DNA from: a virus
IMG/VR virus record: IMGVR_UViG_3300049847_000163
Coordinates: 1 to 40,754 of that record
Length of the DNA stretch: 40,754 bases
Strand: one strand, 5' to 3'
In this document: piece after piece, positions 22,255-39,236 of the stretch
Layout: every line of letters begins with the position of its first letter
Position numbering within the stretch: position 1 is the stretch's first letter
Position numbers and translations under genes: made by a program
Notes under the pieces: model-generated
What the model was told of the DNA's origin: nothing
Seen by the model: only the letters and a program-made list of their open reading frames with translations
Databases searched by the model: none

Positions 22255-22299
22255 ATACAACTATTGTAGTGGGGGTTGTGGATGGTACAACTGTTAGTA
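22255..22299. promoter_or_regulatory. Two operator-like sites upstream of the virion operon
   Basis: ATACAACTATTGTAG (22255-22269) matches the perfect palindrome at 24,942 in 13 of 15 bases. GTACAACTGTTAGTA (22285-22299) matches its left half and centre, with 10 consecutive identities. The centres are about 30 bp apart, near three helical turns. They overlap the -10 and -35 of the candidate leftward promoter, which fits a regulator blocking or arranging that promoter. Confidence 0.5.
22263..22290 (-). promoter_or_regulatory. Candidate leftward promoter for the virion operon
   Basis: On the minus strand TTGTAC (22290-22285), a 16-base spacer and TACAAT (22268-22263, 5 of 6 consensus). The -35 is poor, as expected for a late promoter that needs an activator. 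Operator-like sites cover both boxes. It is 75-115 bases upstream of the possible starts of the first leftward gene. Confidence 0.35.
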
Positions 22300-22465
22300 T
22301 GGTTACGCGGTGGGGAGGTTGCAGGTGTTTGAGCGGTAGTATGAGATGAGTCTCAACCCCCGGTCGTTTTTGCCGTTGTCTTGTATGGGGGGTGAGAGCT
22401 AAACCCCGCAAAACACCGCGCCATGGCACCCCCATACCCCCTACACCGCCGACACCCGTACCTAA

Positions 22466-22493
22466 CTAACAACTGTAAACTAACAACTGTAAA
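22466..22493. repeat. 14-bp perfect tandem repeat (CTAACAACTGTAAA x2)
   Basis: CTAACAACTGTAAA occurs twice head to tail, each copy containing the core ACAACTGT. The second copy continues into AGAAGTGA. A related single copy, AACAACTGTAAAGAAAGTGA, sits at 23143-23162 just before the first rightward gene. An inverted core (ACAGTTGT) is at 22616-22623. Confidence 0.85.
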
Positions 22494-22623
22494 GAAGTGA
22501 TGTGTTACTGGTCGGGTCGGGTCGGCCGCGGGTGTTTTGCGAGGAGAATTCGACGACGCTGGCATACCCCCTAGGGTAAAAATGGGGTGATTTCGTGGTG
22601 TAAATGATACATATTACAGTTGT

Positions 22624-22647
22624 GTACGTAGTTGAGCGTACGTAGTT
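22624..22647. repeat. 10-bp direct repeat with 14-bp period (GTACGTAGTT x2)
   Basis: GTACGTAGTT is at 22624-22633 and again at 22638-22647, with four bases between, so the period is again 14 bp, as for the neighbouring CTAACAACTGTAAA pair. The 5' copy directly abuts the inverted ACAGTTGT core. Confidence 0.7.
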
Positions 22648-22724
22648 CCCGCAAAATTACTGCATTTAGTCTAGCAATTAGGCTACCCCTGACTAAACTT
22701 TTTGTAGTTTGCTGCATTTTCACT

Positions 22725-22775
22725 CTATATATATATATGATTTATATTATTATTATTATTATAGGTTTAATTTTA
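22725..22775. other. AT-rich island (possible DNA unwinding element)
   Basis: A TATATATATATA run and a row of TTA/ATT triplets make about 50 bases with almost no G or C, in a region otherwise near 50% G+C. Iteron-like hexamers lie on both sides. Such an element is a usual part of theta-type replication origins. A late promoter is an alternative. Confidence 0.55.
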
Positions 22776-22811
22776 GACTGCCTAGTCAGTTTAGACTACC
22801 TTTTTTAGGGG

Positions 22812-22840
22812 TCCCCCACAGGGAAGACGTTTTTGGGGGA
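22812..22840. other. Inverted repeat TCCCCCA/TGGGGGA
   Basis: TCCCCCA (22812-22818) and TGGGGGA (22834-22840) form a perfect 7-bp stem around a 15-base loop. It can form on either strand and has no following T-run in either direction, so it is not a standard terminator. It lies between the AT-rich island and the right group of hexamers. Confidence 0.45.
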
Positions 22841-23096
22841 AATGGGGGTGACGATACGGGGGAGTATCCGACAACCGCTTAAAAGGCTTCACATATAACA
22901 CCTGTAACATTACCCCCTCTCCTAAACAAACCCACCGCAATAGACTTTCCAGTAGGCGCGATCGTTTTTCCAGTCTAATTTGTCTAAGCAGTCTAGTTTC
23001 TTTATAATCAAGGGCTTGCGTAGCCTAGTTGTATCAGGTCTTATCCGGTTTTAAGGCTAATTTTCAAAAACATAACTAAATATTATCAAAATCCTC

Positions 23097-23124
23097 TTGA
23101 CTTTTTTCAGAAAACCCCTATCAT
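23097..23124 (+). promoter_or_regulatory. Rightward early promoter
   Basis: TTGACT (23097-23102), a 16-base spacer and TATCAT (23119-23124), each 5 of 6 to the sigma-70 consensus. The predicted start near 23131 lies 40 bases before the first rightward ATG. An ACAACTGT core (23144-23151) falls in the early transcribed region, so a protein bound there could act as a roadblock. Confidence 0.65.
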
Positions 23125-23172
23125 TCACCTAGCGTCTACTGCAACAACTGTAAAGAAAGTGAGCCACCTATT

Positions 23173-23610
23173 ATGTCCAACAAGCAGCGTTTTGAGACCA
23201 ACAAGCGAGCGATTGATGCTGCGCTTGCGGCGGGAACCTATCGGCGAGACATTGCCGTCCGTTTCGGCATCACGGATGAGTACCTGATCCGCAACTACAT
23301 TCTCGAGCAACACGGCCCCGATCATCCGTCTATGTCACGCGCTACAGCCGTAAAAGCTACACCTGTAATATTGGATAGCCTTACTTACGCGACGCCCACA
23401 GCGACGCTTACCGCACTAACATGCCGCAATCTACTCAATCACATGACCCCGCGGCAACTAGCCGAAGCCTGCCAATACGACGCGAAGGATTTTTGTGCTT
23501 GGGTGATACAGAACCGCGTAGTGAAGACGTGGCTACTGCCAAGCCGCAAGCGGGTAACTATCGAAGAAGCCCAAGCCCTGCAAGAGCATATCTTGAATGA
23601 GCTGAATTAA
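23173..23610 (+). CDS. Candidate DNA-binding regulator, 145 aa
   Basis: First gene of the rightward block, directly behind a promoter with an operator-like site. The N-terminus (KRAIDAALAAGTYRRDIAVR followed by FGITDEYLIRNYI) has the spacing of a helix-turn-helix: a helix, a turn at Gly-Thr-Tyr and a recognition helix. A second helical block (LTCRNLLNHMTPRQLAEACQ) follows. The C-terminus LQEHILNELN is repeated at the end of the next gene. It is the best candidate in the window for the protein that binds the ACAACTGT sites, but this is inference. The family is not recognised. Confidence 0.55.
   Translation: MSNKQRFETNKRAIDAALAAGTYRRDIAVRFGITDEYLIRNYILEQHGPDHPSMSRATAVKATPVILDSLTYATPTATLTALTCRNLLNHMTPRQLAEACQYDAKDFCAWVIQNRVVKTWLLPSRKRVTIEEAQALQEHILNELN
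23581..23610 (+). repeat. 30-bp gene-end repeat, copy 1
   Basis: The last 30 bases of the 145-aa gene, including its TAA, match 23872-23901 at the end of the next gene in 29 of 30 positions. Both encode LQEHILNELN and stop. The difference is one C/T change that is silent. Confidence 0.9.
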
Positions 23611-23628
23611 ACCGATCGGAGTGAGAAA

Positions 23629-23901
23629 ATGAACGATGAGCAACTACTTGACAGGTTATTTGATAACCTGACCTATGCGCAGCAATTTGCGGCGATATGG
23701 AACCGTCACGCGCGAGTATTTGTCCCCGACCTAGCCGGCGTACGCGGGGAACCTAAAGCCGTCGCGTGGGACTCTAGCGGAGAGATTGAAGGGTTAGAGT
23801 TTAGCGACGGGTCATGTTATTACCCGGGCGAAGCCCTTTACTCTAAACGGTGTACACCATCAACCGCGCTTCAAGAGCATATTTTGAATGAGCTGAATTA
23901 A
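23629..23901 (+). CDS. Small early protein, 90 aa
   Basis: Ribosome site GGAG 7 bases before the ATG. The N-terminal part has hydrophobic and aromatic residues (LLDRLFDNLTYAQQFAAIWN) and the middle is a beta-like part (AVAWDSSGEIEGLEFSDGSC). The last 10 residues are identical to those of the preceding gene through a 30-bp duplicated end, so this C-terminus may have been swapped in by recombination. Family and function unknown. The 7-bp inverted repeat CAGGTTA-TTTGA-TAACCTG (23652-23670) lies within its first 15 codons. Confidence 0.6.
   Translation: MNDEQLLDRLFDNLTYAQQFAAIWNRHARVFVPDLAGVRGEPKAVAWDSSGEIEGLEFSDGSCYYPGEALYSKRCTPSTALQEHILNELN
23872..23901 (+). repeat. 30-bp gene-end repeat, copy 2
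   Basis: Second copy of the gene-end repeat (29 of 30 identical to 23581-23610), in the same frame and including the stop codon of the 90-aa gene. Spacing between copies is 291 bases. Confidence 0.9.
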
Positions 23902-23925
23902 AAACCACTAACTAAAGGAACGGAC

Positions 23926-24213
23926 ATGAACGAAGAAACAAACGTCAAATTTGATTTGAAGCTAGACGCCACGATGACGCACACGCGTACAGTAACTGCA
24001 CTGCGCGATTACATGGTGCTGGAGCACACGCCGCAGACCTTGCGTGCGGCTCTTGTTGACCTGCTTAACATGGAGTATGGGAATGGAGCGTCACTTCAGT
24101 GGTGTATGTTGGTATTGAAAATATGCGGCATGCTTGCACGTAACCCCGTAAAGTTTAACGTGTGGGCGTCTACATTTGGTATAGCACCTTTACGTATGGA
24201 AGAGAAAAAGTAA
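23926..24213 (+). CDS. Small early protein, 95 aa
   Basis: AAGGAAC ribosome site before the ATG. No family is recognised. It is a soluble helical protein with a hydrophobic core (LRAALVDLLNMEYGNGASLQ; WCMLVLKICGMLA). The next gene begins immediately after its TAA with no gap. Part of the early small-gene array; no functional motif. Confidence 0.55.
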   Translation: MNEETNVKFDLKLDATMTHTRTVTALRDYMVLEHTPQTLRAALVDLLNMEYGNGASLQWCMLVLKICGMLARNPVKFNVWASTFGIAPLRMEEKK

Positions 24214-24699
24214 ATGTCATTCTTAGATATGAACCGTCTTGCGCAAGACCGCGCAAGCAGACAACTACCCCTTAGCTCAGACGCCGCGATGATGGCAGCG
24301 ACAGCGGTCTATATAACGACGCCAAGTGGGGCTAGTGAAGTCTCACGGCAGGCATCACAGCGTGCGCAAGCGCGACTATTGGACAAGCAAGCCTATTTGT
24401 GCAGCTACGTCATCACGTCACCGTTACAGCCGGATTCGTTCGCAGTGGTGACGCAGATGCACCCGTCTACGGGCGGCGGTACGCTGCATATTATCGTAGA
24501 CGACTTCGGCGGTGGTGTGAGCACCAGCGGTACACGGGATAAGGATTACGACCACGCGATGCCGACGCGCAGCATATCAATCGAGCATGAGAATGCAGCG
24601 ATGGCGCTGCACACAATCGGGGGGCACGTGCTTTCGGGTGTGCAGGACTGGTGTACTGAGTTGCGCAATGCCGGGTTCATAGTGATGAAAGCAGTCTGA
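24214..24699 (+). CDS. Early protein of unknown function, 161 aa
   Basis: Its ATG follows the previous TAA directly, so expression is coupled. The protein starts with an Ala/Ser/Gln-rich helix and continues as an alpha/beta domain with SYVITSPLQPDSFAVVTQMH, a Gly-rich loop (STGGGTLHIIVDDFGGGVST) and a conserved-looking HTIGGHVLSGVQDW before the C-terminus. No catalytic pattern could be assigned. Its G+C-rich coding style matches the neighbouring early genes. Confidence 0.55.
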   Translation: MSFLDMNRLAQDRASRQLPLSSDAAMMAATAVYITTPSGASEVSRQASQRAQARLLDKQAYLCSYVITSPLQPDSFAVVTQMHPSTGGGTLHIIVDDFGGGVSTSGTRDKDYDHAMPTRSISIEHENAAMALHTIGGHVLSGVQDWCTELRNAGFIVMKAV

Positions 24700-24700
24700 C

Positions 24701-24925
24701 ATGATAACAACTTACATACTACCTGCGTTTTTTGCGCAAGCATTGTTGAACGGAGACTACGCGCAGCTTAGCCAGTTAGAGTTACAGGCGTTGAAGGATT
24801 TCAACGATAGATGTACTCCGGGGGAATGCGTAGAGGTAGGAGAAGAAGAGTTTTTCACACATTCTCACGCTATGATAAATAGTATCGGTGGGTGCGTGTG
24901 CGCGGAGTTCAAATATTTAACCTAG
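24701..24925 (+). CDS. Small early protein, 74 aa
   Basis: Begins one base after the stop of the preceding gene, with no own ribosome site, so reinitiation is likely. Residues 5-30 (YILPAFFAQALLNGDYAQLS) are hydrophobic at the start and then helical and amphipathic. The rest is acidic with two Cys near the end. No family recognised. It is the last gene before the strong promoter at 24,931. Confidence 0.5.
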   Translation: MITTYILPAFFAQALLNGDYAQLSQLELQALKDFNDRCTPGECVEVGEEEFFTHSHAMINSIGGCVCAEFKYLT

Positions 24926-24930
24926 ACTAC

Positions 24931-24959
24931 TTGACAAACGAATACAACTGTTGTATACT
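24931..24959 (+). promoter_or_regulatory. Strong sigma-70 promoter
   Basis: TTGACA (24931-24936), a 17-base spacer and TATACT (24954-24959): a perfect -35, an ideal spacer and 5 of 6 at -10. Predicted start near 24966, about 50 bases before the 298-aa gene. A 15-bp palindrome covers the right half of the spacer and half of the -10, so it is probably repressible. It would drive the long small-gene array. Confidence 0.85.
24942..24956. promoter_or_regulatory. Perfect 15-bp operator palindrome in promoter
   Basis: ATACAAC-T-GTTGTAT is perfectly palindromic around a central T and lies between -35 and -10, overlapping three bases of the -10. Close variants are at 22255, 22285 and 39222, and its core ACAACTGT recurs in the divergent control region. 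A dimeric repressor binding here would exclude RNA polymerase. Confidence 0.75.
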
Positions 24960-25016
24960 TAAACCAGTGACACTCAAGTCACAACCTCAAGCACCAATTA
25001 TAGAAGGATTACTAAA

Positions 25017-25913
25017 ATGAGAAACGTACTAAGAGATAACGCGGAAGTCGCTCACTACTGGGCAAACAAAGTACAGCAGCGTGGACAGAATGCTAACGGC
25101 TCGCTCTATTTTGTAAGTGACAAAATCTACTCGTATGGGTCGCACTTTTGCATTGCGCGGTTGCTGCCTGACAGACAGGTCGCGTTTACTACGCGCAGAT
25201 ATAGCATCACGGCATCGCGGCATAAAGCACTATGCAGACAAGCCGTCTCTAATCGGACATTCGTCTATTGCTCCGACCCCGAAGCTAGCGCAGCTAGTGA
25301 GAGACGCGAAGCCCTTACCGAGATCAATAACAAATTGTCGAGTGCTGCAAAGCCGCGTATCCGGCAATCTACGCGTGATCGTTACCTCGCTGAAGCCTTA
25401 GAAGCCGCGCGGCAGTTCAATGCATACCTCGCGGCGTTGCTTGAGTCTGAACGCGTTGACGTAGACCCTATCGATATAACGGAAGTACCTACGACGATTG
25501 AAGCAGCGATAGCCCTAGCTGTTGAGCGTGAGAGGGTAGCGGCAATAGCGGAACGAGAGTATCGTAAGAAGTACCGCGAAGCCTATGACGCGTGGTGTGA
25601 AGGAACGAGCGATACGATAGATCAACAAGGGGTGTTTCCTATTGCGCTGCGTATCGTGGGCGACGAAGTGCAGACCTCGCGCGGTGCACGGGTAAAGGTC
25701 GCATCAGCGGTGAAGTTGTGGCGTGTGATACAAGTCGTACAAGAACGTAGAGCTAAGGGTAAGTATGCCCCTGCAAGTATGTATGAGCGCATGGACGTAG
25801 GCCCGTACACGCTAGAGACTATCAACACAGATGGTAGTGTGGTGATTGGGTGCCATGTGATTGCTTACGACACGCTACGCGAATGTGCTGTGAAGCTAGG
25901 AGAGAAAGTGTGA
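25017..25913 (+). CDS. Conserved phage protein of unknown function, 298 aa
   Basis: The N-terminal 90 residues have a pattern seen in hypothetical proteins of many unrelated phages: AHYWANKVQQ, a short beta hairpin, KIYSYGSHFCIARLL, then a strand pair with FTTRRYSITASRHKALCRQA and FVYCSDPEAS. The role of that family is unknown to me. A long charged helical middle (about 100-200) and a small C-terminal domain (GPYTLETINTDGSVVIGCH) follow. It is the first gene behind the strongest promoter in the window, so it is probably made early and in quantity. Confidence 0.65.
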   Translation: MRNVLRDNAEVAHYWANKVQQRGQNANGSLYFVSDKIYSYGSHFCIARLLPDRQVAFTTRRYSITASRHKALCRQAVSNRTFVYCSDPEASAASERREALTEINNKLSSAAKPRIRQSTRDRYLAEALEAARQFNAYLAALLESERVDVDPIDITEVPTTIEAAIALAVERERVAAIAEREYRKKYREAYDAWCEGTSDTIDQQGVFPIALRIVGDEVQTSRGARVKVASAVKLWRVIQVVQERRAKGKYAPASMYERMDVGPYTLETINTDGSVVIGCHVIAYDTLRECAVKLGEKV

Positions 25914-26191
25914 GCACCCTAAGTTTGAAGAGAGCACGCGACCCAGTAACAGGGCGACCTCGCTATGTGGTGCACTTCTTGAACTGCCTTACGCCTGAAG
26001 AAGCTATCGATGTTGCAGTCAATCAGGGCTATGCAACGGCATGCGAGAGAGCACGGAAGTGGCGTGGTTGGAGGTTTCATAATAAGCAGTACGGCGGCGG
26101 TATTGTCTTCGCAACTACTGACCCTATGGACGTGCTCAAAGCAGTAAATGTTATGAGTGGACGTGGGTTTACTACTATAGAGGTGAGATGA
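25910..26191 (+). CDS. Small early protein, 93 aa (GTG start)
   Basis: I start it at the GTG at 25910, which overlaps the TGA of the preceding gene (GTGA) and has AGGAGAG just upstream. The open frame extends 20 codons further but lies in the neighbour. The sequence is basic (LKRARDPVTGRPRYVVHFL; ACERARKWRGWRFHNKQYGG) with a beta-alpha-beta-like layout, and could bind nucleic acid. No family recognised. Confidence 0.6.
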   Translation: MSTLSLKRARDPVTGRPRYVVHFLNCLTPEEAIDVAVNQGYATACERARKWRGWRFHNKQYGGGIVFATTDPMDVLKAVNVMSGRGFTTIEVR

Positions 26192-26448
26192 TGACAGCAT
26201 TCAAAATATCACTACGCAAAGATACTAAGACAGGCGAAGCCCTGCTATTCTTTGTTGATGAATCAGGACAACTGGTGTGCTATGCCCATGTAGGACAACA
26301 CAGCGTCGCGAGTAGAGAGTACATGCGACGCGATACGATACCTTCGAATATCCACAGTGCAGCGCATGCGGCTTTGTTGGAGGAGTGGCAAGGGCAAGGT
26401 GGGTATACGGAAGTGAAGATTGTCAAACGCTTAGGAGCATCGGCATGA
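26188..26448 (+). CDS. Small early protein, 86 aa
   Basis: ATGA overlap with the preceding gene. An adjacent second ATG may be the true start. The N-terminus is a beta hairpin (FKISLRKDTKTGEALLFFVD followed by ESGQLVCYAH), then helices. No family recognised and no catalytic motif. It is chained to the following gene by a second ATGA overlap. Confidence 0.55.
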   Translation: MMTAFKISLRKDTKTGEALLFFVDESGQLVCYAHVGQHSVASREYMRRDTIPSNIHSAAHAALLEEWQGQGGYTEVKIVKRLGASA

Positions 26449-26984
26449 ACTCAGAACTACGCGGTGATTACAACACCGCAACCCATGTCAGGGATGACGT
26501 TAAGTACACCATCACTTACGATATAGACACGGAGTCTGGTTATCCTTGGGATGAAGACTGTTCGTATGAGGGGCTTGTGCGTGAAAGTAGGTATGCCCAC
26601 GGTTCACCAGCAGGGGATAAGAAGCCTCATGAACGTCCGATAAATCAAGGCGATATACGACATACACAGTTCTATTTTGATTGGGCTACTGCGGTTGCAC
26701 GGGCAAGAGAGCACTACTCTCCTATTGAAGCGGTGCAACAAGTGGAGCAGATGTACTTGCGTTTAGTAGAGTGGTGTAAAGATAACTGGTGTTATGTGTG
26801 TATCTGCATTTACCGAGAGAGCGAACTCATTGATAGTATTGGGTATGTAGAGACATACAATAACTACGAAACCACGCTAGCACACGAGATGTTGAATCAT
26901 CTCGTAGCGCAAAGGCGCAAAGAAGTTGTCGAGCGGGCTTATTGGGAATCTCGTGATGTATTAACTGTAGGAACATCGATATGA
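26445..26984 (+). CDS. Early protein of unknown function, 179 aa
   Basis: Start at the ATG at 26445 (MNSELRGDYNTATHVRDDVK), overlapping the upstream TGA and preceded by AGGAG at 7 bases. An upstream extension of the frame is inside the neighbour. The protein is acidic with many aromatic residues (SGYPWDEDCSYEGLV; WCKDNWCYVCICIYRESELI) and a helical C-terminus. The WCYVCICIY stretch is hydrophobic but short. No family recognised. Confidence 0.6.
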   Translation: MNSELRGDYNTATHVRDDVKYTITYDIDTESGYPWDEDCSYEGLVRESRYAHGSPAGDKKPHERPINQGDIRHTQFYFDWATAVARAREHYSPIEAVQQVEQMYLRLVEWCKDNWCYVCICIYRESELIDSIGYVETYNNYETTLAHEMLNHLVAQRRKEVVERAYWESRDVLTVGTSI

Positions 26985-27394
26985 TTACGAAAGCGCAATT
27001 GTTGAATGCACAGAAGGCAGAGATTGGAGAAGCTGCGTTAGGATATCTCGCCTGTGCGTTAGGTGTATCTGATGATGAGGCGGCATCGGAATGCACGGTA
27101 CATGATTTTGATATGGAAGATTTGCAGCACGCGATAGAACAAGTAGGCGTCATCTATGCAAACTTCTACACGATATTCGATCAGATGGGGTATAGCCCCG
27201 ATCAAATGGGGCATGACTTATGGCTTGAGCGTAATGGTCATGGCACTGGGTTTCGTGACCGTAAGCTAGGTGATTTGGGTAAGGCTATCGCAGAGTATGT
27301 GCGTACACGCATGGCTGAAGTCGATCTTGAATTAGCAACAAACGGCACGCCATATTTTATCGCACATCAGTACAGGAATAAGGAGAAACGATAA
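26981..27394 (+). CDS. Early protein of unknown function, 137 aa
   Basis: ATGA overlap with the preceding gene; AGGAA lies upstream. The middle (HAIEQVGVIYANFYTIFDQM, then GYSPDQMGHDLWLERNGHGT, followed by GFRDRKLGDLGKAIAEYV) reminds me of a small conserved phage and plasmid protein group in which 'G.gHDfWLTRnghGaGFwd' appears. That pattern is common in phage hypothetical proteins, but I do not know its function. The match is a visual impression and needs a profile search. Confidence 0.6.
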   Translation: MITKAQLLNAQKAEIGEAALGYLACALGVSDDEAASECTVHDFDMEDLQHAIEQVGVIYANFYTIFDQMGYSPDQMGHDLWLERNGHGTGFRDRKLGDLGKAIAEYVRTRMAEVDLELATNGTPYFIAHQYRNKEKR

Positions 27395-27696
27395 TGGACT
27401 ATCGACGTATGCGGCAACGGGCAGAGCTTGCCCACTCAGATACAACACCCGAAGAGCGTAAGCTGATACACCGTATCGCACAGCGAGCGCTTGATGAACA
27501 GGTGTTGCGCGGGCCTATCATACAAGTGCAGCTACTTATTACTACAGCGCATTGCAAAGCAGGCAAGCTGCGGTTGAAGGAGTTATTAGAAGCTCCTGCG
27601 TTTGATTTCGCACACGATATATCAGGTATGGCGAAACATCTATCTTGTAAGACAGGGCTGTATAACGACTACTTTTCTCCGCGGTATGAGGAATGA
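27394..27696 (+). CDS. Small early protein, 100 aa
   Basis: TAATG overlap with the previous stop. The N-terminal half is charged and helical (YRRMRQRAELAHSDTTPEER; KLIHRIAQRALDEQVLRG) and the middle has a hydrophobic strand (PIIQVQLLITTAHCK). No family recognised. Part of the ATGA/TAATG-linked early array. Confidence 0.5.
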   Translation: MDYRRMRQRAELAHSDTTPEERKLIHRIAQRALDEQVLRGPIIQVQLLITTAHCKAGKLRLKELLEAPAFDFAHDISGMAKHLSCKTGLYNDYFSPRYEE

Positions 27697-28004
27697 GCAA
27701 TCAATCTTTCCCTAATGTAGGTTTGTGGAGTGGGTATATCCGTAACCTCGGATGGAAAGTAGGCGAACAAATCGAAATCCAAGAGCGACGGAAAAACTAT
27801 AGACAGCGAACCCTGCGGCGCTACCATCTTACATTGCAGTATGTTGGTGGTCGCGTAGCAGTTGTTCACTGTAAGCGGGTTGATCTACCTAATCAGGAAT
27901 TAGTTGAGATTGTATTCGTAGCTGATGACGTGCATATACCTGCGAAGGGTACAGTCGAACACTTGCTATGGGGCGGCGTGCTGCGAGGGACGTATGCCTT
28001 TTGA
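27693..28004 (+). CDS. Small early protein, 103 aa
   Basis: ATGA overlap with the previous gene. Very basic N-terminal half (EIQERRKNYRQRTLRRYHLT) followed by beta strands (YVGGRVAVVHCKRVDLPN; QELVEIVFVADDVHIPAKGT). It could be a small nucleic-acid-binding beta protein, by composition only. The next gene overlaps by 11 bases. Confidence 0.5.
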   Translation: MSNQSFPNVGLWSGYIRNLGWKVGEQIEIQERRKNYRQRTLRRYHLTLQYVGGRVAVVHCKRVDLPNQELVEIVFVADDVHIPAKGTVEHLLWGGVLRGTYAF

Positions 28005-28374
28005 AAAGGTCTACGAGTCCTTGCTACATCGCATCATGGCGAACGTGGAAGAAGTAGACCTAGGGCATAAGGTTGATGATGAGGCCAGTCCCTGCTGGCT
28101 ATGGTTAGGACGTTGTGACAAGCGCAGTCATAGACCAAAGATTAACTTGTATGATAAGGGAAAATATACAACGAAGAGAGTGTATAGACTGTTGTATGAA
28201 TTGGTGTATGATTGTACACTTGAACCAGCACAGACACTTGACCATGAATGTGAGCAGGTGACTTGTGTTAGACCAGAGCATCTAAAGGTGATGGATGCTA
28301 AACGCAATGCTAGCTTGGCAGTGTCTCGCTGGCGTAGTAAATACGAGAAAGGGTACAAAGATGTTGATGCATAG
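27994..28374 (+). CDS. HNH endonuclease-like protein, 126 aa
   Basis: Start at the ATG at 27994 (MPFEKVYESL) with GAGGG nearby. A CWLWLG motif (residues about 32-37), typical of the first strand in phage HNH proteins, is followed by a basic hairpin and YRLLYELVYD. Then comes the core TLDHECEQVTCVRPEHLKVM, the usual LDH...C...H..HL layout with the catalytic His and a zinc-type Cys/His pattern. The Asn of the classic CVNPEHL is Arg here and the usual aHR is TKR, so activity is uncertain. Such genes are often free-standing homing endonucleases or packaging nucleases. Confidence 0.75.
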   Translation: MPFEKVYESLLHRIMANVEEVDLGHKVDDEASPCWLWLGRCDKRSHRPKINLYDKGKYTTKRVYRLLYELVYDCTLEPAQTLDHECEQVTCVRPEHLKVMDAKRNASLAVSRWRSKYEKGYKDVDA

Positions 28375-28582
28375 ATTCACAATGTTGCTCGCAGCCGTAG
28401 GGCTTGCAGCACCTCCTATGCAAGACCAGAAGGTATGGTCTGCAACGAACCGCACTAAGGGTGAACGCATGGGCAACAAAGCTGCTGGGCGTAGTACGTT
28501 GTCAGTGGCGCAAGCCAAGCGCGATAAGGCACATCGCAAGGGGGTACGCATGCACAAGCAGCGTATTAAGTCATGTCGATAA
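28361..28582 (+). CDS. Small basic protein with hydrophobic N-terminus, 73 aa
   Basis: Start chosen at 28361 (MLMHRFTMLLAAVGLAAPPM) because GAAAGGG lies 7 bases upstream. The gene overlaps the end of the HNH gene. Residues 5-20 look like a short signal-like or membrane-inserting stretch. The remainder is strongly basic (AQAKRDKAHRKGVRMHKQRI). It could be an exported or membrane-associated basic peptide, or a small DNA-binding protein. Nothing decides. Confidence 0.45.
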   Translation: MLMHRFTMLLAAVGLAAPPMQDQKVWSATNRTKGERMGNKAAGRSTLSVAQAKRDKAHRKGVRMHKQRIKSCR

Positions 28583-29743: not shown

Positions 29744-29851
29744 ATGAATGATAATGATGTAACAGTATTGCGCATTGCAGGTATGAAAATAGTTATTCCT
29801 GACCAACCTGACTTTTTTATCCGGGTATACCATAAAAAAGAATCTACTTGA
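29744..29851 (+). CDS. Very small protein, 35 aa
   Basis: GGAGG lies 6 bases upstream of the ATG at 29744, an ideal ribosome site, two bases after the previous stop. The frame encodes MNDNDVTVLRIAGMKIVIPD followed by 14 residues and a TGA that overlaps the next promoter's -35. Strand-like hydrophobic residues suggest a tiny folded or partner-binding peptide. Size is near the limit of confident calling, but the ribosome site supports it. Confidence 0.5.
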   Translation: MNDNDVTVLRIAGMKIVIPDQPDFFIRVYHKKEST

Positions 29852-29875
29852 CTTGTACTGAACAACTGATATACT
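29848..29875 (+). promoter_or_regulatory. Sigma-70 promoter with operator half-sites
   Basis: TTGACT (29848-29853), a 16-base spacer and TATACT (29870-29875). ACAAC (29862-29866) and GTTGTAT (29876-29882) are the two arms of the 24,942 palindrome, here spread 9 bases apart on either side of the -10. It precedes the 167-aa gene, whose ATG is at 29897. Confidence 0.75.
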
Positions 29876-29896
29876 GTTGTATGAAAGGGTTAGATA

Positions 29897-32344: not shown

Positions 32345-33247
32345 ATGGCGTCAAATAAACTACGCAACCACCCAGACATTAAACGATCTGGTGATGGGTT
32401 CCTTGCGCGGCTTAGCGCGATCAAGGTGGACAAGGGATGGAATGTTCGCGTGCGCAATGAAGCGCTGCAAGAACACATCGGGCAGATCGCAACCTCGCTA
32501 GTCAATGGCGGCACTGTACCTGCGCTTGAGATATATGTTAACGATAAGAACGAGATCGTTATTGCCGATGGGCACTGCCGTAATGAGGGCTACAATCAAG
32601 CGAACAAGCAAGGCGCAGAGTTTGAGTGGGTACCTATCAGGGAGTTTGTAGGCAATGATGCTGACCGTGTGGCGTTGATGTTCACATCTGCCCAGGGTAA
32701 GCCACTGACACAGTACGAACAGGCTGAAGCGTTCAAACGTCTCAAGGGGTTCAACTGGTCGAACGCGGACATCGCCAAGCGTGTAGGCCGCACAGAACCG
32801 TTCGTGATCCGCATGCTCAAGCTGGCGAATGCCGATAGCGAAGTCAAGCAGATGGTGAAGTCTGGCAAGGTATCTGTTGGTGCAGCCGTCAAGGTTGTAC
32901 GCAAGGCGGGTAGCAAGGCTGGAGCCGAACTGAAACAGCGTATCGCTAAGGCTGAAGCGAAGGCAGCTAAGGCAGTGAAGGCTGGCGGTAAGGCCAAAAA
33001 GGTAGTTGTTACTGAACGTGATGTGGACAGTTTGAAACTACCGAAGAAGCTTCAAGATGATCTGATCGTCTTCTACCAGAATCTCCGTGAAAATATGGGG
33101 CCAATGGTGTATGATGAGGCACGGTCACTTGTAGACCTCAGTGATGCAGAACTCGAAGGAGAATCTGCTGAGCTAAGTATGGCCCTAATCGTGAGTCTCC
33201 TTCGTATTGGCGATGAGATTACTAAACTAACAGTTGAAAGGAACTGA
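32345..33247 (+). CDS. ParB-like DNA-binding protein, 300 aa
   Basis: Strong AAAGGA ribosome site. The N-terminal ParB/Srx-type domain has the first motif at 31-38 (GWNVRVRN) and the CTPase-type signature IVIADGHCRNEGY at 71-83. It is followed by PLTQYEQAEAFKRL (120-133) and a KorB-type helix-turn-helix (WSNADIAKRVGRTEPFVIRM at 138-157). KVSVGAAVKVV then matches the end of the ParB DNA-binding domain. A Lys/Ala-rich linker (about 188-220) and a helical C-terminus for dimerisation complete it. In phages such proteins are often found in replication clusters. Roles in partition, regulation or as a ParB-like nuclease are possible. No ParA is seen. Confidence 0.85.
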   Translation: MASNKLRNHPDIKRSGDGFLARLSAIKVDKGWNVRVRNEALQEHIGQIATSLVNGGTVPALEIYVNDKNEIVIADGHCRNEGYNQANKQGAEFEWVPIREFVGNDADRVALMFTSAQGKPLTQYEQAEAFKRLKGFNWSNADIAKRVGRTEPFVIRMLKLANADSEVKQMVKSGKVSVGAAVKVVRKAGSKAGAELKQRIAKAEAKAAKAVKAGGKAKKVVVTERDVDSLKLPKKLQDDLIVFYQNLRENMGPMVYDEARSLVDLSDAELEGESAELSMALIVSLLRIGDEITKLTVERN

Positions 33248-33248
33248 G

Positions 33249-33446
33249 ATGGTAAAGAAGAAAATTGATGGTGGTCGAGGTAGCAAGCACCCGCTTGCGA
33301 AACTCACTCCCGCACAGGTACGTGCAATCCGCAAGAAGCTAGCTAAGGGTACGATCTCTCGCTCGGCTATCGCTCGTGAGTACGACGTATCGCCTATGGT
33401 GATTAAGCGTATCGACTCCGGCGAGTCGTATAAGGATGTAGTCTAA
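33249..33446 (+). CDS. Small helix-turn-helix protein, 65 aa
   Basis: AAAGGA ribosome site 6 bases before the ATG at 33249 (MVKKKIDGG). The core LTPAQVRAIRKKLAKGTISR then SAIAREYDVSPMVIKRIDSG is a clear HTH of the type seen in phage HNH-associated and regulatory proteins ('lT..qV..IR..l..G..s...IA..ygVs...I..I..g..y'). Lys-rich N-terminus. It lies between the ParB-like and polymerase genes. It could be an autoregulator of the replication block or a remnant of an HNH homing gene. Confidence 0.75.
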   Translation: MVKKKIDGGRGSKHPLAKLTPAQVRAIRKKLAKGTISRSAIAREYDVSPMVIKRIDSGESYKDVV

Positions 33447-33449
33447 GCG

Positions 33450-35348
33450 ATGGATGTCATCACGCTAGACTTCGAGACGTACTATGCACCAGACTACACA
33501 CTCTCGAAGCTAACAACTGAGCAGTATCTCCGCGATCCTCGCTTTGAAGTGATAGGAGTATCAGTAAAACTCAATACTGATCCTGCTGTATTCTTCCCTG
33601 CACCACAAGTAGCGGCTGCCCTGGCTGATTTCAACTGGGATAACGCGATGCTTGTGGGGCACAATCTGATGTTCGATGGTGCCATACTCAACTGGCACTA
33701 TGGCATTACACCAAAGGCGTATGCAGACACGCTCAGTATGGCTCGTGGTCTAGGGCTACAAGCGCAGGTAGGCGGGTCATTGAAGGCACTCACAGACTAC
33801 TTCATTGCTCTCGGCTACCCACTACCCCCAAAGGGAGACGAAGTTGTATCAGCCTTGGGTAAGCGGTATGCAGACTTTAACATCGAAGCACTCGCTAGGT
33901 ATGCAGCCTATTGCCGCAATGATACTGAGGCTACCTATCAGTTGTTCAAGATATTCATGGAAGTGCTGAACTTTCCAGTCTCGGAGCTACGTGTTATCGA
34001 TGAGACAATGCGGATGTTCTGCGATCCACTGCTACGTTTAGATGGCGCTGTGCTGGCGCAGCATCTGAATGATGTGGTGACACGCCAAGATACGCTGCTT
34101 GATCGTGTAGGTGTAACCATCGATCAGATTCGTAGCGATGCCCAGTTCGCCGAGCTACTACGCGAGCGTTTTGTAGAGCCTCCTGTGAAAGTATCTGCAC
34201 GTACAGGTAAGGTCGCTTACGCTTTCAGTAAGACGGATGAAGACTTCCTCGCGCTACTTGATGATGAAGACGAAGATGTACAGGCACTCGTTGAATGTAG
34301 GCTTGGTAACAAGTCATCAATCGAGCAGTCACGCACTGAGCGTTTCATAGGCATTTGCGAGCGCGGTGCTTTACCTGTACCTCTGCAATACTATGCTGCC
34401 CATACTGGACGGTTTGGAGGTACAGATAAGGTTAACCTACAGAACCTCCCACGCGGGGGTAAGTTGCGCGACGCTATCGTTGCTCCGCCTGGGCATGTCC
34501 TTGTTGTTGGTGACTCTGCACAGATCGAAGCCCGTATGCTGGCATGGCTCGCGCAACAGCACGATCTGGTTGCAGCATTTGCTGCGGGGGATGATATCTA
34601 CTCTAGCTTCGCGTCAGATGTGTTTGGCGTCGCGGTTACCAAGGCTGATAAAGAACGTCGCTTCGTAGGTAAGACATCCATACTAGGGTTAGGATATGGG
34701 ATGGGGCCGCCAAAGTTCCAAGGTACACTTCGCCGTGGTAACGGGGGTATACGATTTGAGATGGAACTTGGCGACGCTAGCGGAGTTGTTGCTGTATACC
34801 GTAATAAGTATGCGATGATCCCCGAACTTTGGAAGCAGGGTAAGCGAGCGCTCGACGCTTTACTGCAAGGTACAACTGCACCGTTTGGGCGGGCTGGAGT
34901 ACTACAGGTAGAGCCTGTCAGCGCTACCATATCTACCCCTCAGATTCGCCTACCTAACGGCATGGCTATACGTTACCCTGGGCTACGTGCTGAAGAAGGC
35001 GACAAAGGGCAGCAGTTCTTCTACACCGCGCGCAAAGGGCGGGGTACTTACGAGGTACGCTTGTACGGTGGTAAGCTGGTAGAGAATGTTGTACAAGCTT
35101 TGGCCCGTATCGTCGTGACTGACCAGTGGATGCAAATCAAACGACGGGCTATCAAAGAGCGAGTCTTCCACCGCAGTCCTGTTGTCGCACAAGTTCACGA
35201 CGAACTCGTATGTTGTGTACCCATTACCGCTGCCCGAGAAATGCAGATGATAATGGAGGAGGAGATGCATCGCGCTCCTGACTGGGCAGCCGGGTTACCT
35301 GTGGCTTGTGAGGTAGGTGCTGCATATAGTTATGGAGATGCGAAGTAG
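33450..35348 (+). CDS. DNA polymerase, family A with 3'-5' exonuclease, 632 aa
   Basis: The exonuclease domain has ExoI LDFETY (D7, E9), ExoII GHNLMFDGA (D76) and ExoIII YCRNDTEATY (D158). The polymerase domain has the catalytic motif A GDSAQIEARMLAW (D355), motif B RRFVGKTSILGLGYGM (403-418) and motif C VAQVHDELV (D584 E585). It is a compact phage-type enzyme without the 5' nuclease domain of bacterial Pol I. It copies the phage DNA with proofreading. The ATG is 3 bases after the HTH gene stop. All key residues are present, so it should be active. Confidence 0.95.
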   Translation: MDVITLDFETYYAPDYTLSKLTTEQYLRDPRFEVIGVSVKLNTDPAVFFPAPQVAAALADFNWDNAMLVGHNLMFDGAILNWHYGITPKAYADTLSMARGLGLQAQVGGSLKALTDYFIALGYPLPPKGDEVVSALGKRYADFNIEALARYAAYCRNDTEATYQLFKIFMEVLNFPVSELRVIDETMRMFCDPLLRLDGAVLAQHLNDVVTRQDTLLDRVGVTIDQIRSDAQFAELLRERFVEPPVKVSARTGKVAYAFSKTDEDFLALLDDEDEDVQALVECRLGNKSSIEQSRTERFIGICERGALPVPLQYYAAHTGRFGGTDKVNLQNLPRGGKLRDAIVAPPGHVLVVGDSAQIEARMLAWLAQQHDLVAAFAAGDDIYSSFASDVFGVAVTKADKERRFVGKTSILGLGYGMGPPKFQGTLRRGNGGIRFEMELGDASGVVAVYRNKYAMIPELWKQGKRALDALLQGTTAPFGRAGVLQVEPVSATISTPQIRLPNGMAIRYPGLRAEEGDKGQQFFYTARKGRGTYEVRLYGGKLVENVVQALARIVVTDQWMQIKRRAIKERVFHRSPVVAQVHDELVCCVPITAAREMQMIMEEEMHRAPDWAAGLPVACEVGAAYSYGDAK

Positions 35349-35356
35349 AGGTGTAT

Positions 35357-35590
35357 ATGAAAAATTTTGTACCAAGAAAAGAGTATCGACTGTGCTTCCA
35401 TCTTTATAAATATATCGGCCAATTTAAGTTTCATCGCGTTAGGCTTTTGATCCGTCTTGTATACGCAGATGGCACTTGGGAAAAATGTAATCGGGATGAT
35501 CTTTATTTTAGATATGCTACTAAGCTAGATAGGCTATGGGTAGCTCTAGGTGATTGGTACTTTACACGCAAATACGGAGATGCGAAGTGA
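35357..35590 (+). CDS. Small basic protein with repeated C-terminus, 77 aa
   Basis: ATG at 35357 preceded by GTAGAGGTG; a GTG two codons earlier is an alternative. The protein is basic and aromatic (KEYRLCFHLYKYIGQFKFHR; WVALGDWYFTRKYG), with strand-like regions. Its last residues YGDAK, and their DNA, repeat the end of the polymerase gene, probably by local duplication. Its base composition is more AT-rich than its neighbours. Function unknown. Confidence 0.5.
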   Translation: MKNFVPRKEYRLCFHLYKYIGQFKFHRVRLLIRLVYADGTWEKCNRDDLYFRYATKLDRLWVALGDWYFTRKYGDAK

Positions 35591-36417
35591 CGACTTGTAC
35601 TGATCCTATCCGCATCAAAGCACAAGCGAGGTACGATAAAGTTGTTACCCCTGAGTCCGTAGCTAAAGCAACACTGCCTATGGATGCCCTGGAATTTGTA
35701 CGACTAACCCATAACGAAGAAGAATCTATGGATACAATGAAGCCCCTCAATATTGCACACTCGTACACGTCCATCTCTACCTATGATACCTGCCCCAAGC
35801 AATACTACGCGAAGTACGTATCGAAAGAAGTAAAGTTTCAACCGACTGAAGCCACACTCTACGGTGACCGTATGCATAAAGCAATGGAGTTCCGTTTGCG
35901 CGACAAGACCCCCTTACCACCGGAGTTCCTAGGGCTTGAGAGCGTAGCGGCAGCAGTGGAGGCCATGCCAGGAACTCTACTGGTTGAGGAGTCCTTTGCG
36001 ATAACCCGAGAGGGGGAGAATACTACTTTCTTCGGATCAAACGTATGGCTACGTGGTAAGGGTGACGCGACAATATTCAATGCAGCGAAGGCTAGTCTTG
36101 CGGTATTTGACTGGAAGACGGGCAAGCCAGTGAAAGATGAACTACAACTGCACATCATGACGGCTTTAGCGAAGCGGCGTTACCCTCAAGCAGAGACTAT
36201 TCGTACTGCATTCGTATACACCAAGACTGGCGAAATTGAGAAGGAAGTAATCCGTAGCGAGACAGTCCCAGAGATTGAGCAGAACATCGCGAATAAAATT
36301 CACCGTATCGAAGTGGCGCACGAGAAGAATCTCTTTCCTCCGCAGCCGAGTGGACTATGTAAGAACTGGTGCCAAGTCACTAGCTGTCAGTTTCATGGGA
36401 AGGGCAGGTACGGTTAA
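35587..36417 (+). CDS. Cas4/RecB-like PD-(D/E)XK nuclease, 276 aa
   Basis: GTG start at 35587, overlapping the previous TGA (GTGA) and preceded by GGAG at 7 bases. It is a RecB-family nuclease: HSYTSISTYDTCPKQYYAKY (58-77), LYGDRMHKAM with the motif I His (H97), GKGDATIF (D160), FDWKTGK (D175, K177) and the QLHIMTA helix (Q187). Four Cys, one at C69 and three in CKNWCQVTSC (258-267), match the Fe-S cluster arrangement of Cas4 and AddB. The family degrades or trims DNA ends and is common in phage recombination blocks next to DNA polymerase. No CRISPR array is visible here. Confidence 0.9.
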   Translation: MTTCTDPIRIKAQARYDKVVTPESVAKATLPMDALEFVRLTHNEEESMDTMKPLNIAHSYTSISTYDTCPKQYYAKYVSKEVKFQPTEATLYGDRMHKAMEFRLRDKTPLPPEFLGLESVAAAVEAMPGTLLVEESFAITREGENTTFFGSNVWLRGKGDATIFNAAKASLAVFDWKTGKPVKDELQLHIMTALAKRRYPQAETIRTAFVYTKTGEIEKEVIRSETVPEIEQNIANKIHRIEVAHEKNLFPPQPSGLCKNWCQVTSCQFHGKGRYG

Positions 36418-36737
36418 TGTCTACTCCTGAGAGTAAAGTTAAAGCTAAGATTAAACGAGTACTAGCGCAGTACGATGTATGGGTGAACATGCCTGTGAGT
36501 ATGGGGTATGGGCAGCACGGTATCCCTGATTTTATTTGCTGTGGTATGTCAGTTGGGGGTAGAGCGGGGTTATTCTTCTCCATCGAAGCGAAAGCAAACG
36601 GTGGTAAGCCGACAGCATTGCAAGACATGCAGATGCAGCGTATCCGTAAGGCGGGTGGGGTGACGTTTGTTATAGATGAACATAATATTGAGGAGTTAGA
36701 AGCATGGCTACGGCTGTACATAAAGACGGTGAACTAA
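36417..36737 (+). CDS. VRR-NUC domain nuclease, 106 aa
   Basis: TAATG overlap with the nuclease gene. It is a stand-alone VRR-NUC domain: N-terminal STPESKVKAKIKRVL, then GIPDFICCG (the metal-binding Asp), FFSIEAKANGGKPTALQ (Glu and Lys of the E-A-K core and the Gln of the following helix) and VTFVIDEHNIEELEAWL. Family members cut branched DNA such as Holliday junctions or flaps. In phage replication clusters this gene commonly serves as the junction resolvase before packaging. Confidence 0.9.
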   Translation: MSTPESKVKAKIKRVLAQYDVWVNMPVSMGYGQHGIPDFICCGMSVGGRAGLFFSIEAKANGGKPTALQDMQMQRIRKAGGVTFVIDEHNIEELEAWLRLYIKTVN

Positions 36738-37024
36738 CAGCAGAGCAGATAGCGCTGCAAGAAGCAACTATGAATATGACGTCCTACTTACTAAGTGGAG
36801 TAGATTTCGCTATGGTTCCTCTAGGAATCATACTGGGTGGGTCTTATGGTATGACTTCCTACGTTCTCGCAGCTTGTATCTTTGAGCACAAGAGGCAAGA
36901 GAATATAGCCTTCGATTTAGACGAAGAAGTCCAGAAGGTTGCAAAAATAATTGGCGCACAAACACAGTACTACCTAACGCAGCTAGAATTTATTGCTGCT
37001 AAAGCGCCAGGATCAGTGCAGTGA
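36704..37024 (+). CDS. Small protein in replication block, 106 aa
   Basis: Overlaps the VRR-NUC gene by 34 bases; GGAG lies upstream. The central segment (VDFAMVPLGIILGGSYGMTS, then YVLAACIF) is hydrophobic and could be one membrane span or a buried helix pair. The rest is acidic and helical (LDEEVQKVAKIIGAQTQYYL). No family recognised. It sits between nuclease and zinc-ribbon genes and so may serve the replication complex, but the hydrophobic stretch is odd for that. Confidence 0.5.
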   Translation: MATAVHKDGELTAEQIALQEATMNMTSYLLSGVDFAMVPLGIILGGSYGMTSYVLAACIFEHKRQENIAFDLDEEVQKVAKIIGAQTQYYLTQLEFIAAKAPGSVQ

Positions 37025-37299
37025 CTGGCGAAGTTATACCGTTCAAGTCGCCTACGTCGCGGCATACAAGTGGCGCTGCTGTATGCATAGGATGTAAGCA
37101 TGAGTGGGAGGCTGTTGTACCTAATGGTACGACTAGTTTAGAATGTCCAGCATGCGGTACATTTAAGGGGGTATTCAAATACCCCTATGCACCTGTAGGT
37201 GATTGCCTTGTATGTACGGGGTGCGACGGTGCGCTGTTCTACGTGACAGCTAAGGGCACGGCTTTCTGCCCTACCTGCGGAGTTCATCTAAATTACTAG
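37021..37299 (+). CDS. Double zinc-ribbon protein, 92 aa (GTG start)
   Basis: GTG start overlapping the previous TGA. Two zinc-ribbon-like Cys sets are visible: CIGC (22-25) with CPAC (42-45), and CLVCTGC (62-68) with CPTC (83-86). Zinc ribbons of this size in phage replication regions often bind DNA or another replication protein. The N-terminal 20 residues are flexible. Specific role unknown. Confidence 0.75.
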   Translation: MTGEVIPFKSPTSRHTSGAAVCIGCKHEWEAVVPNGTTSLECPACGTFKGVFKYPYAPVGDCLVCTGCDGALFYVTAKGTAFCPTCGVHLNY

Positions 37300-37308
37300 G
37301 AGCCTAAG

Positions 37309-37584
37309 ATGGCGATGATGTTTAAGGTTGCTCTTGAGCGCCTAGCGAATGGCGAGCATGGGCAAGTGATGCCAGTTACCCTCAAAGGGCATGGGCCAGA
37401 CGGCACACCGAGGGAGACGGTAGCCTTCGAACTTCAGTGGCTTGAACGCCAGGGTATCGACCCCGAAGACACAATCCTATGCCGCTACCGTGTGCGTGAT
37501 CCTGAAGATGTGCAGAGAATTAAAGACGCTTTCGCGCGACGCACAGCTATTCAGGATTTAGCAAAGCTGCATGTCTATACCTGA
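37309..37584 (+). CDS. Small protein upstream of helicase, 91 aa
   Basis: AGGAG ribosome site 6 bases upstream. A beta strand segment (QVMPVTLKGHGPDGTPRETV) and a helical end (DPEDVQRIKDAFARRTAIQD) are seen. No family recognised. It ends five bases before the helicase ATG, which has no own ribosome site, so helicase synthesis probably depends on translation of this gene. Confidence 0.5.
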   Translation: MAMMFKVALERLANGEHGQVMPVTLKGHGPDGTPRETVAFELQWLERQGIDPEDTILCRYRVRDPEDVQRIKDAFARRTAIQDLAKLHVYT

Positions 37585-37589
37585 CCCCT

Positions 37590-39227
37590 ATGCCTATCGC
37601 CCTAACTAATAAAAAAGCTCTTGTACTGAAGCTGCGTGACCCGAGTAAAGTAACAAGTGTTCTTCCCGTAACTCAGACTATCGAGCAAGACGGAGAGGTT
37701 TTCACGGCAGTGCCGCATACTGTCGATGCATGGCATGTGCTCAAGAACCTCGGCGTGAACGTGCAGGACTATGAGCCAATGCGCTGGTACTACCCCTACC
37801 CCAAGCTCTACGGTAGGCACGATCCGATGCCACACCAGTCGGAGACGGCGGTATTTTGTACAGCAAATAAACGGGCCTATATCCTCAATGAGATGCGCAC
37901 GGGTAAGACTTCGGCGACGCTGTGGGCAAGCGACTATCTCCGCGAAGCGAAACAGGTTAGGAAAGTCTTGATCCTCTGCACTATGTCATGCATGGACGTA
38001 GTGTGGAAGCAAGCGATATTTGGCTTATTCCCCCATCGTACTGTGGCTATCCTACATGGGTCACACGAGCGCCGCCTAGCACTACTGAAAGAAGACTTCG
38101 ACTACTACGTGCTCAACCATGATGGCGTGAAGATCGGGTATAACGCTAAGAACCCCGTAGGATTCTATGCTGAACTCTTGCGCCAGATCAAGGCAGGCGA
38201 GATCGGACTAATGATCGTAGATGAAGGTGCAGAGTACCGTAACTTCAGCACAGATAGGTGGAAAGCCCTGAAGGGACTAGCCTGTGTCGAGCGTATCTGG
38301 TGGCTGACAGGTACACCAACTCCCGGTGGGCCAGAGGATGCCTGGGCACAAGCCCGTATAGTTAACCCAGGCCGTGCTCCTGAATACTTCAAGACGTGGA
38401 AAGACCGCGTGATGTATCAGGTGAATAAGTACAAGTGGGTGCCCAAGCATGGGCATGAAGCAGACGTACATAACCTTATGCAACCTGCGATACGGTATAA
38501 GAAGTCTGATGTGCTCAACAACTTGCCTGTTACTTTCGATGACCGCGAAGCAACGCTAACGAAGGAGCAACTTGCAGCATACCAACAGATCAAGACTCAA
38601 GGTGTACTCGCATCTAAGCAAGGTGCTGTTACTGCGGTCAACGCCGCAGTGCTACTGGGCAAGCTGCTCCAGATCGGCGCAGGCGCAGTGAAGAATGACA
38701 ACGGCGATATAGTCCACTACCCTCCAACGAACCGTCTTGCGGTGCTTGACGAATTGATCGCACAGTCTGCCTCTAAGGTAATTGTGCTTGCACCCTACAA
38801 AGCCGTCGTAGATTTACTGGTAGCCCATATAGCGAAGACCCACAAGGTAGCCTTCATTGATGGGCGGGTAACGGGCAGGGCCAGATCGAAAGTGATACAT
38901 GACTTCCAGCACGGGGATAATCTTGATGTACTGGTCGCACATCCCAAAACAACTGGACATGGCCTAGAGTTTGCCGTAGCTGATACTGTAGTCTGGTATG
39001 CACCGATGCATTCCGTAGACTTGTACGAACAGGCGAACCATCGTATCATGTCGAATGCTCAAACCCGCAGCGCAGGCGTATATCATATCGGGTGCTCCCC
39101 TCTGGAATGGAAGATTTACAGAGCCCTGAAAGCTGGAGTTTCCCTCCAGCAAAAAATACTTGAGCTATACGACGAAGAAATTTTAGGAAAAGCCTTGACA
39201 GGTGAACTAACACCTGTTACTATATAA
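37590..39227 (+). CDS. SNF2-type (SF2) DNA helicase/ATPase, 545 aa
   Basis: Motifs in order: MPHQSE (80-85, adenine-sensing), Walker A NEMRTGKTSA (100-109), VDEGAEYRN (210-218, DExx box as DEGA), LTGTP (239-243, motif III). In the C-terminal lobe KVIVLAPYKAVVDLL (motif IV region), then DVLVAHPKTTGHGLEFAVAD and VVWYAPMHSVDLYEQANHRI (motifs V and VI). Phage SNF2-like proteins of about 450-550 aa are frequent in phages with family A polymerases and may serve in replication or recombination. Motif VI usually has QAxxRxxR; here it reads QANHRIMS, so the second Arg is not visible. Confidence 0.88.
   Translation: MPIALTNKKALVLKLRDPSKVTSVLPVTQTIEQDGEVFTAVPHTVDAWHVLKNLGVNVQDYEPMRWYYPYPKLYGRHDPMPHQSETAVFCTANKRAYILNEMRTGKTSATLWASDYLREAKQVRKVLILCTMSCMDVVWKQAIFGLFPHRTVAILHGSHERRLALLKEDFDYYVLNHDGVKIGYNAKNPVGFYAELLRQIKAGEIGLMIVDEGAEYRNFSTDRWKALKGLACVERIWWLTGTPTPGGPEDAWAQARIVNPGRAPEYFKTWKDRVMYQVNKYKWVPKHGHEADVHNLMQPAIRYKKSDVLNNLPVTFDDREATLTKEQLAAYQQIKTQGVLASKQGAVTAVNAAVLLGKLLQIGAGAVKNDNGDIVHYPPTNRLAVLDELIAQSASKVIVLAPYKAVVDLLVAHIAKTHKVAFIDGRVTGRARSKVIHDFQHGDNLDVLVAHPKTTGHGLEFAVADTVVWYAPMHSVDLYEQANHRIMSNAQTRSAGVYHIGCSPLEWKIYRALKAGVSLQQKILELYDEEILGKALTGELTPVTI
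39195..39223 (+). promoter_or_regulatory. Sigma-70 promoter inside the helicase gene end
   Basis: TTGACA (39195-39200), a 17-base spacer and TACTAT (39218-39223, 4 of 6). The spacer holds a perfect 6-bp inverted repeat CAGGTG-aactaa-CACCTG (39199-39216). It would drive the two last genes (39,266 onward). An operator-like site overlaps its start region. Confidence 0.65.
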
Positions 39228-39236
39228 CTGTTGTTT
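39222..39236. promoter_or_regulatory. Operator-like site at the start of the 39,266 transcript
   Basis: ATATAACTGTTGTTT matches the perfect palindrome at 24,942 in 13 of 15 bases, and lies over the -10 end and probable start of transcription. It supports shared control of this promoter with that at 24,931. Confidence 0.6.

Follow-up and report, generated by a model that had tools for sequence, protein, structure and literature searches.

A family of promoter-tied candidate operators in an uncultured podovirus-like phage

Do the copies of a short palindromic motif that recur among the promoters of a phage genome form the operators of one regulator, and which protein would read them? The question is raised by the IMG/VR virus record IMGVR_UViG_3300049847_000163, which looks like the DNA of an uncultured podovirus-like phage and was analysed over its entire length of 40,754 bases (the window, below). 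A first-pass annotation had noticed the motif and proposed that a single dedicated regulator acts through it on early and late genes alike. Both the statistics and the positions of the sites give good support to a family of related protein-binding sites linked to promoters, and a single dedicated regulator behind all of the sites is plausible. The genome has two arms: genes for terminase, portal, capsid and internal virion proteins run leftward from about 22.2 kb, while early and replication genes run rightward from 23.2 kb and encode, among others, a family A DNA polymerase, a RecB-like nuclease, a VRR nuclease, an SNF2 helicase and a ParB-like protein.

Enrichment of the motif outside genes

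The motif takes its most regular form in a perfect 15-bp palindrome, ATACAACTGTTGTAT, at 24942-24956, and two further stretches, 22255-22269 and 39222-39236, agree with it at 13/15 positions, all as the first-pass annotation had reported. With up to three mismatches allowed, the window holds 10 strand-matches to ATACAACTGTTGTAT where 1.6 are expected, a number reached in none of 100 shuffles. The 8-bp core, ACAACTGT, occurs in seven copies (1.68 expected), at 22287, 22469, 22483, 22616 (minus strand), 23144 and 24944, the core positions listed earlier all being correct, and additionally in coding DNA at 13376. A 'similar block' said to precede the portal gene (about 19825-19840, CTAACTGTCGTATAC) is a weak case, since it contains no match within three mismatches.

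It had also been suggested that the motif be compared with shuffled sequence, and here the result is clear. ACAACTGT is the most frequent 8-mer in the window's 2,548 non-coding bases, where it has six copies although 0.13 would be expected; when this non-coding DNA was shuffled 2,000 times with dinucleotides preserved, the highest count for any 8-mer was five. As a test over all 8-mers, this control is independent of the earlier reader's choice of motif. The single copy in about 38 kb of coding DNA is close to the background rate, and such enrichment in multiple copies outside genes is as expected for distributed phage operators. As an exact palindrome ATACAACTGTTGTAT is not exceptional genome-wide; what speaks for the motif is where it lies, in non-coding DNA and at promoters, and not a whole-genome palindrome count. 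Leave-one-out weight matrices ranked nine of 11 sites 10th-53rd among 81,508 positions; the remaining two entries (29863 and 23035) had been entered out of register and are uninformative in this test.

Sites at the predicted promoters

For an assessment of placement we took as the promoter set all rightward sigma-70-type sequences in non-coding DNA with at least 10 of the 12 consensus bases. Five consensus predictions qualify (22980, 23097, 24931, 29848 and 39195), and every one carries a version of the motif between the -35 element and about +22. The existence and enrichment of the sites, and their placement on the five best rightward promoters, are direct results of the computation.

24931-24959, plus strand: promoter TTGACA-17-TATACT, 11/12, the best non-coding sigma-70 promoter; a 298-amino-acid (aa) gene (phrog_7247) lies downstream
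24942-24956, either strand: candidate operator ATACAACTGTTGTAT, perfect palindrome, over the spacer of promoter 24931 and into the first half of its -10
22980-23008, plus strand: promoter TTGTCT-17-TATAAT, 10/12, sigma-70-type
23026-23035, minus strand: half-site GATACAACTA, at about +11 to +20 of promoter 22980
23097-23124, plus strand: promoter TTGACT-16-TATCAT of the first early operon, 10/12, sigma-70-type
23144-23153, plus strand: asymmetric site ACAACTGTAA, within the leader of the 145-aa gene, about +13 to +22 relative to promoter 23097
29848-29875, plus strand: promoter TTGACT-16-TATACT, 10/12, sigma-70-type
29862-29882, either strand: candidate operator arms ACAACTG (29862-29868) and GTTGTAT (29876-29882), on either side of the -10 TATACT (29870-29875)
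39195-39223, plus strand: promoter TTGACA-17-TACTAT, 10/12, sigma-70-type
39222-39236, plus strand: candidate operator ATATAACTGTTGTTT, 13/15, beginning as the -10 of promoter 39195 ends and reaching approximately its start point

The core with at most one mismatch is found in four of the five promoters but in 8% of random 66-bp windows (binomial P = 2e-4), and 400 permuted cores reached at most three of the five. The fifth promoter, 22980, has the half-site ATACAACT on the minus strand. Overlap of sites and promoters is thus seen, as expected of distributed phage operators, at four to five of the five best predicted non-coding rightward promoters, and the earlier descriptions of the palindrome over promoter 24931 and of arms flanking the -10 of promoter 29848 both hold.

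Leftward transcription presents a less clear picture:

22255-22269, plus strand: candidate operator ATACAACTATTGTAG, 13/15, over a candidate leftward -10 TACAAT
22285-22299, plus strand: candidate operator GTACAACTGTTAGTA, 30 bp from the operator at 22255, over a weak leftward -35
22263-22290, minus strand: leftward promoter candidate TTGTAC-16-TACAAT, 8/12, weak, toward the structural genes

The site at 22255 does cover the TACAAT to which it had been assigned, but the promoter candidate itself matches only 8/12 positions. The proposal of one regulator for early and late genes consequently stands in part: there is a promoter-tied family of sites, but control of the late genes would hang on this one weak candidate, and the sites split into two classes, namely promoter palindromes that tend to ATACAACTGTTGTAT and asymmetric ACAACTGTAA repeats. 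The four asymmetric 10-mers (22469, 22483, 22614 and 23144) all lie within a non-coding divergent island of 988 bp (22185-23172), near its AT-rich stretch:

22469-22478, plus strand: asymmetric ACAACTGTAA, iteron-like, tandem unit 1
22483-22492, plus strand: asymmetric ACAACTGTAA, tandem unit 2
22614-22623, minus strand: asymmetric ACAACTGTAA, inverted
22710-22769, either strand: AT-rich stretch, about 83% AT

These copies could be weak half-site operators or the iterons of an origin. An iteron origin of plasmid type would be expected to show regular direct repeats beside an AT-rich stretch; the island has the AT-rich stretch, and its repeats amount to only one 14-bp tandem pair with otherwise scattered copies. 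A second, separate set of repeats, AGTCTA/TAGACT, flanks the same AT-rich stretch (22668, 22774, 22792, 22941, 22972 and 22990, within 22668-23000) and is possibly the second repeat family of an origin. At the other end of the window, a separate perfect palindrome, CAGGTGnnnnnnCACCTG (CAGGTGAACTAACACCTG), occupies the spacer of promoter 39195 at 39199-39216; its right arm, ACACCTGTTA, differs by one base from ACAACTGTTA, and ACACCTGTAA is found again at 22898 and 23359.

A proposed repressor and the competing explanations

We hold with moderate confidence that the sites are operators of a phage-encoded dimeric repressor that acts on the early rightward operons, and binding by a protein, its dimeric state, repression, the identity of the regulator and any action on the late genes of the leftward arm are what we infer here. 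A phage-encoded DNA-binding protein would bind, mainly as a dimer, to an odd-centred palindrome of 13-15 bp with the half-site (T/A)ACAAC; in each operator one half-site would usually be strong and its partner degenerate. By occupying host sigma-70 promoters somewhere from the -35 to about +22, the protein would exclude or stall RNA polymerase, and the early rightward operons would be turned down together. Placement relative to the promoters points to repression, by blocking of RNA polymerase, in preference to activation, because the sites cover the spacer and -10, surround the -10, start at its end or follow just past the start point. If the protein were the 145-aa first early protein, which is the most likely candidate, it would control its own operon. 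The sites would be a further case of the distributed operator control already known in phages, and an unannotated phage genome becomes a testable regulon that comprises five promoters and about ten sites, with two proteins as the main candidates for its regulator.

23173-23610, plus strand: 145-aa first early protein, the favoured candidate by position and helix pattern
32345-33247, plus strand: ParB-like protein with HTH_ParB and KorB domains, the alternative candidate
33234-33446, plus strand: 70-aa HTH_7 protein, resembling the DNA-binding tails of phage HNH endonucleases and resolvases

Among the early genes, that for the 145-aa protein comes first, and a motif site lies in its leader; the protein's sequence, together with low-confidence models, suggests that it contains helix-turn-helix motifs. 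A fold search with its C-terminal fragment gave no significant match and is uninformative either way. The 3' ends of this gene and of the next, 90-aa gene are near-identical, a duplication (23580-23610 and 23871-23901) that encodes LQEHILNELN in both. The 70-aa HTH_7 protein is a less likely regulator.

A different phage offers a parallel. In Rhizobium phage RHph_TM3_14A, an unrelated motif of its own, ACCTYTTGRCNAC, has four copies in 50 kb where none is expected (17570-17582, 26543-26555, 34604-34616 and 40880-40892 of its sequence), and each of the four occupies the spacer or overlaps the -35 of a strong sigma-70-type promoter, these promoters being at 17577 (minus strand), 26537, 34598 and 40874. 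The same promoter arrangement therefore recurs with a different sequence, which suggests that operator sets evolve fast while the arrangement is kept, and such sets could make it possible to locate the master regulators of phages in metagenomes without recourse to homology. RHph_TM3_14A has capsid, portal, terminase, polymerase, nucleases and helicase in common with the window at low identity; no common protein was found beyond the virion and replication modules, and hence no common regulator can be named.

Several observations weigh against the repressor proposal. The copies at 22469 and 22483 form a perfect 14-bp tandem duplication and so are not independent, symmetry is not general, given that the right half is poor in four intergenic sites, and the promoters are consensus matches whose total count in the region is not above that in shuffles. 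The consensus of ACCTYTTGRCNAC was written after its sites had been seen, with 50 of 61 kb scanned. Searches of IMG/VR with the promoter-plus-operator pattern and with the polymerase, internal virion protein, phrog_7247 protein, SNF2 helicase and terminase found either no relatives or only distant ones, and no close one with the same motif. For the 145-aa protein no homologues and no significant Pfam or PHROG match were found, and its models are poor (pLDDT 51 and 72) and give no confident fold; indeed, no protein in the window could be assigned as regulator of the sites. The record ends within a gene and relatives have genomes of about 60 kb, so that the phage genome is probably incomplete and further operator sites may therefore be missing. 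Neither an integrase nor any known lysogeny gene could be recognised among the genes present in the record.

The main rival, which we consider rather doubtful, is that one protein serves as replication initiator and repressor in the manner of a plasmid Rep protein, with the ACAACTGTAA repeats at an origin and the promoter palindromes bound by a dimer. Both site classes have the 8-bp core ACAACTGT in common, the ACAACTGTAA copies are confined to the 988-bp island around the AT-rich stretch with two of them in the 14-bp tandem repeat, and phage KPP25, which has the same DNA polymerase, contains two islands holding 21/22 TCGT(A/G)ACA repeats. The F plasmid provides a precedent in its AT-rich region, RepE iterons and inverted-repeat operator at repE (PMC13028717), and the likeness lies in asymmetric repeats near an AT-rich stretch together with promoter palindromes that have a common core. 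The window differs from plasmid F, however, in that its repeats are few and irregular, three or four iteron-like copies in both orientations, in that its palindromes lie up to 16 kb away, and in that no Rep-type initiator turned up among those of its proteins that were compared with PHROGs, the genome being incomplete. A more elaborate version, in which a small Rep-like phage protein binds origin iterons and all early-promoter operators and so couples the start of replication to early shut-off, relatives having equivalent systems with unrelated sites, we regard as a little less probable again. We would place slightly lower still the possibility that the ParB-like protein at 32345-33247 is the regulator, loading at scattered palindromes and silencing promoters as KorB of plasmid RK2 does. 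The window does encode a protein of ParB fold with a KorB-type helix-turn-helix domain (HTH_ParB, 1.1e-9; KorB domain, 1.2e-4, just above the Pfam cut-off; phrog_1033, 1.7e-57; a weak PDB match to KorB, 8qa8). The KorB OB core, TTTAGCGGCTAAA, found within an oligonucleotide in PMC11790492, is likewise an odd-centred 13-bp palindrome of a kind scattered at promoters, but it differs in sequence from the window palindrome. Relatives of the ParB-like protein are located in the replication and recombination gene blocks of many phages, and a comparable repeated non-coding motif is absent from three phages that have such relatives (L238, L239 and L240), which is an indirect argument.

The sites might instead be operators of a host regulator that the phage has adopted, so that early genes track host physiology, but we think this unlikely. 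Such a reading would agree with the host sigma-70 type of the phage promoters and with the failure to assign a regulator within the window, while the presence of about ten sites in so small a phage genome speaks for a dedicated factor, and a full-text literature search matched nothing known to the motif and found no such bacterial operator. Two known operator types, the 434-type (ACAA-N6-TTGT) and LexA boxes, do not fit in spacing. By far the least probable reading is that promoter consensus and chance together account for the motif. The palindrome partly overlaps the TATA of the -10, the motif was chosen after the fact and two of its copies are the tandem duplication; these concerns are answered by the all-8-mer shuffle test, by the permuted-core test and by the sites at 22469, 22614 and 23144, which lie outside promoter hexamers.

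Known repeat systems and related phages

A close likeness in arrangement among phages is to the operators and stoperators of cluster A mycobacteriophages, in which the L5 and Bxb1 repressors read a short site present in many genome copies, some of them at early promoters, with a consensus that is phage-specific (PMC6550527). Stoperators, however, are asymmetric 13-bp sites that are read by a known immunity repressor, occur in one orientation in transcribed regions, mostly off promoters, and number up to about 30 per genome, whereas the window has about ten sites that are partly palindromic and mostly at promoters. The start-associated sequences (SAS/ESAS) of cluster K mycobacteriophages are also repeated across the phage genome but are located at translation starts (PMC3203893), where the window sites are at promoters instead.

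Beyond the window, the bare 15-mer occurs in more than 119 IMG/VR contigs, which is consistent with chance; few contigs have multiple copies, and these looked unrelated or in genes. In one of these, a phage contig of a different kind (L138:590-665), three TACAAC(A/T)GTTG-like sites with a spacing of about 31 bp and TTTTACATTTTTGTAAAA between them directly follow a winged helix-turn-helix (wHTH)-like gene.

Phages related to the window often have palindrome families of another sort. In 19 of 81 related loci, defined as those with the window's polymerase or other window genes and including RHph_TM3_14A, a palindrome with 6-bp arms is present in at least four identical copies, against none of 47 controls and at most two in shuffles (the 19 are L010, which is RHph_TM3_14A, L015, L016, L025-L027, L031, L033, L035-L037, L046, L051, L056, L058, L063, L069, L071 and L085). 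The palindromes are 13-20 bp long, identical within a phage and particular in sequence to most phages or small groups (for example GTACGTCA-N-TGACGTAC and ACCTAACAATTGTTAGGT; positions include L051:310-326 and L026:48-65), and they lie in intergenic gaps, where many of them precede a possible gene start by no more than about 25 bases. RHph_TM3_14A has a GTTACC-N6-GGTAAC palindrome with 35 near copies. Given this similar placement, the relatives' palindromes are a better analogue of cluster K SAS than are the window sites; the window has no such family, its largest exact family having one member with 6-bp arms and three with 5-bp arms.

RHph_TM3_14A and the phage Rollin, both with genomes of about 61 kb, have the polymerase and much gene content in common with the window. 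Rollin contains an island (L009:1-1455) with several copies of a palindrome, AAAAGGTAGYAAGTTACTACCTTTT, and CTAAATT repeats. The two KPP25 islands (L241:12190-12640 and 44050-44350, or about 26390-26840 and 58250-58550 of KPP25) both look like replication origins, and the first plainly surrounds an AT-rich stretch.

Rfam and tRNA scans of the window were empty. Among its leftward genes, three adjacent ones (4408-6438, minus strand) have in common a C-terminal domain matching phrog_61 and are perhaps paralogous receptor-binding or tail genes; at 6294-6370, where two leftward open reading frames overlap, a perfect 9-bp tandem repeat, CACAGGAGT, is present in 8.6 copies.

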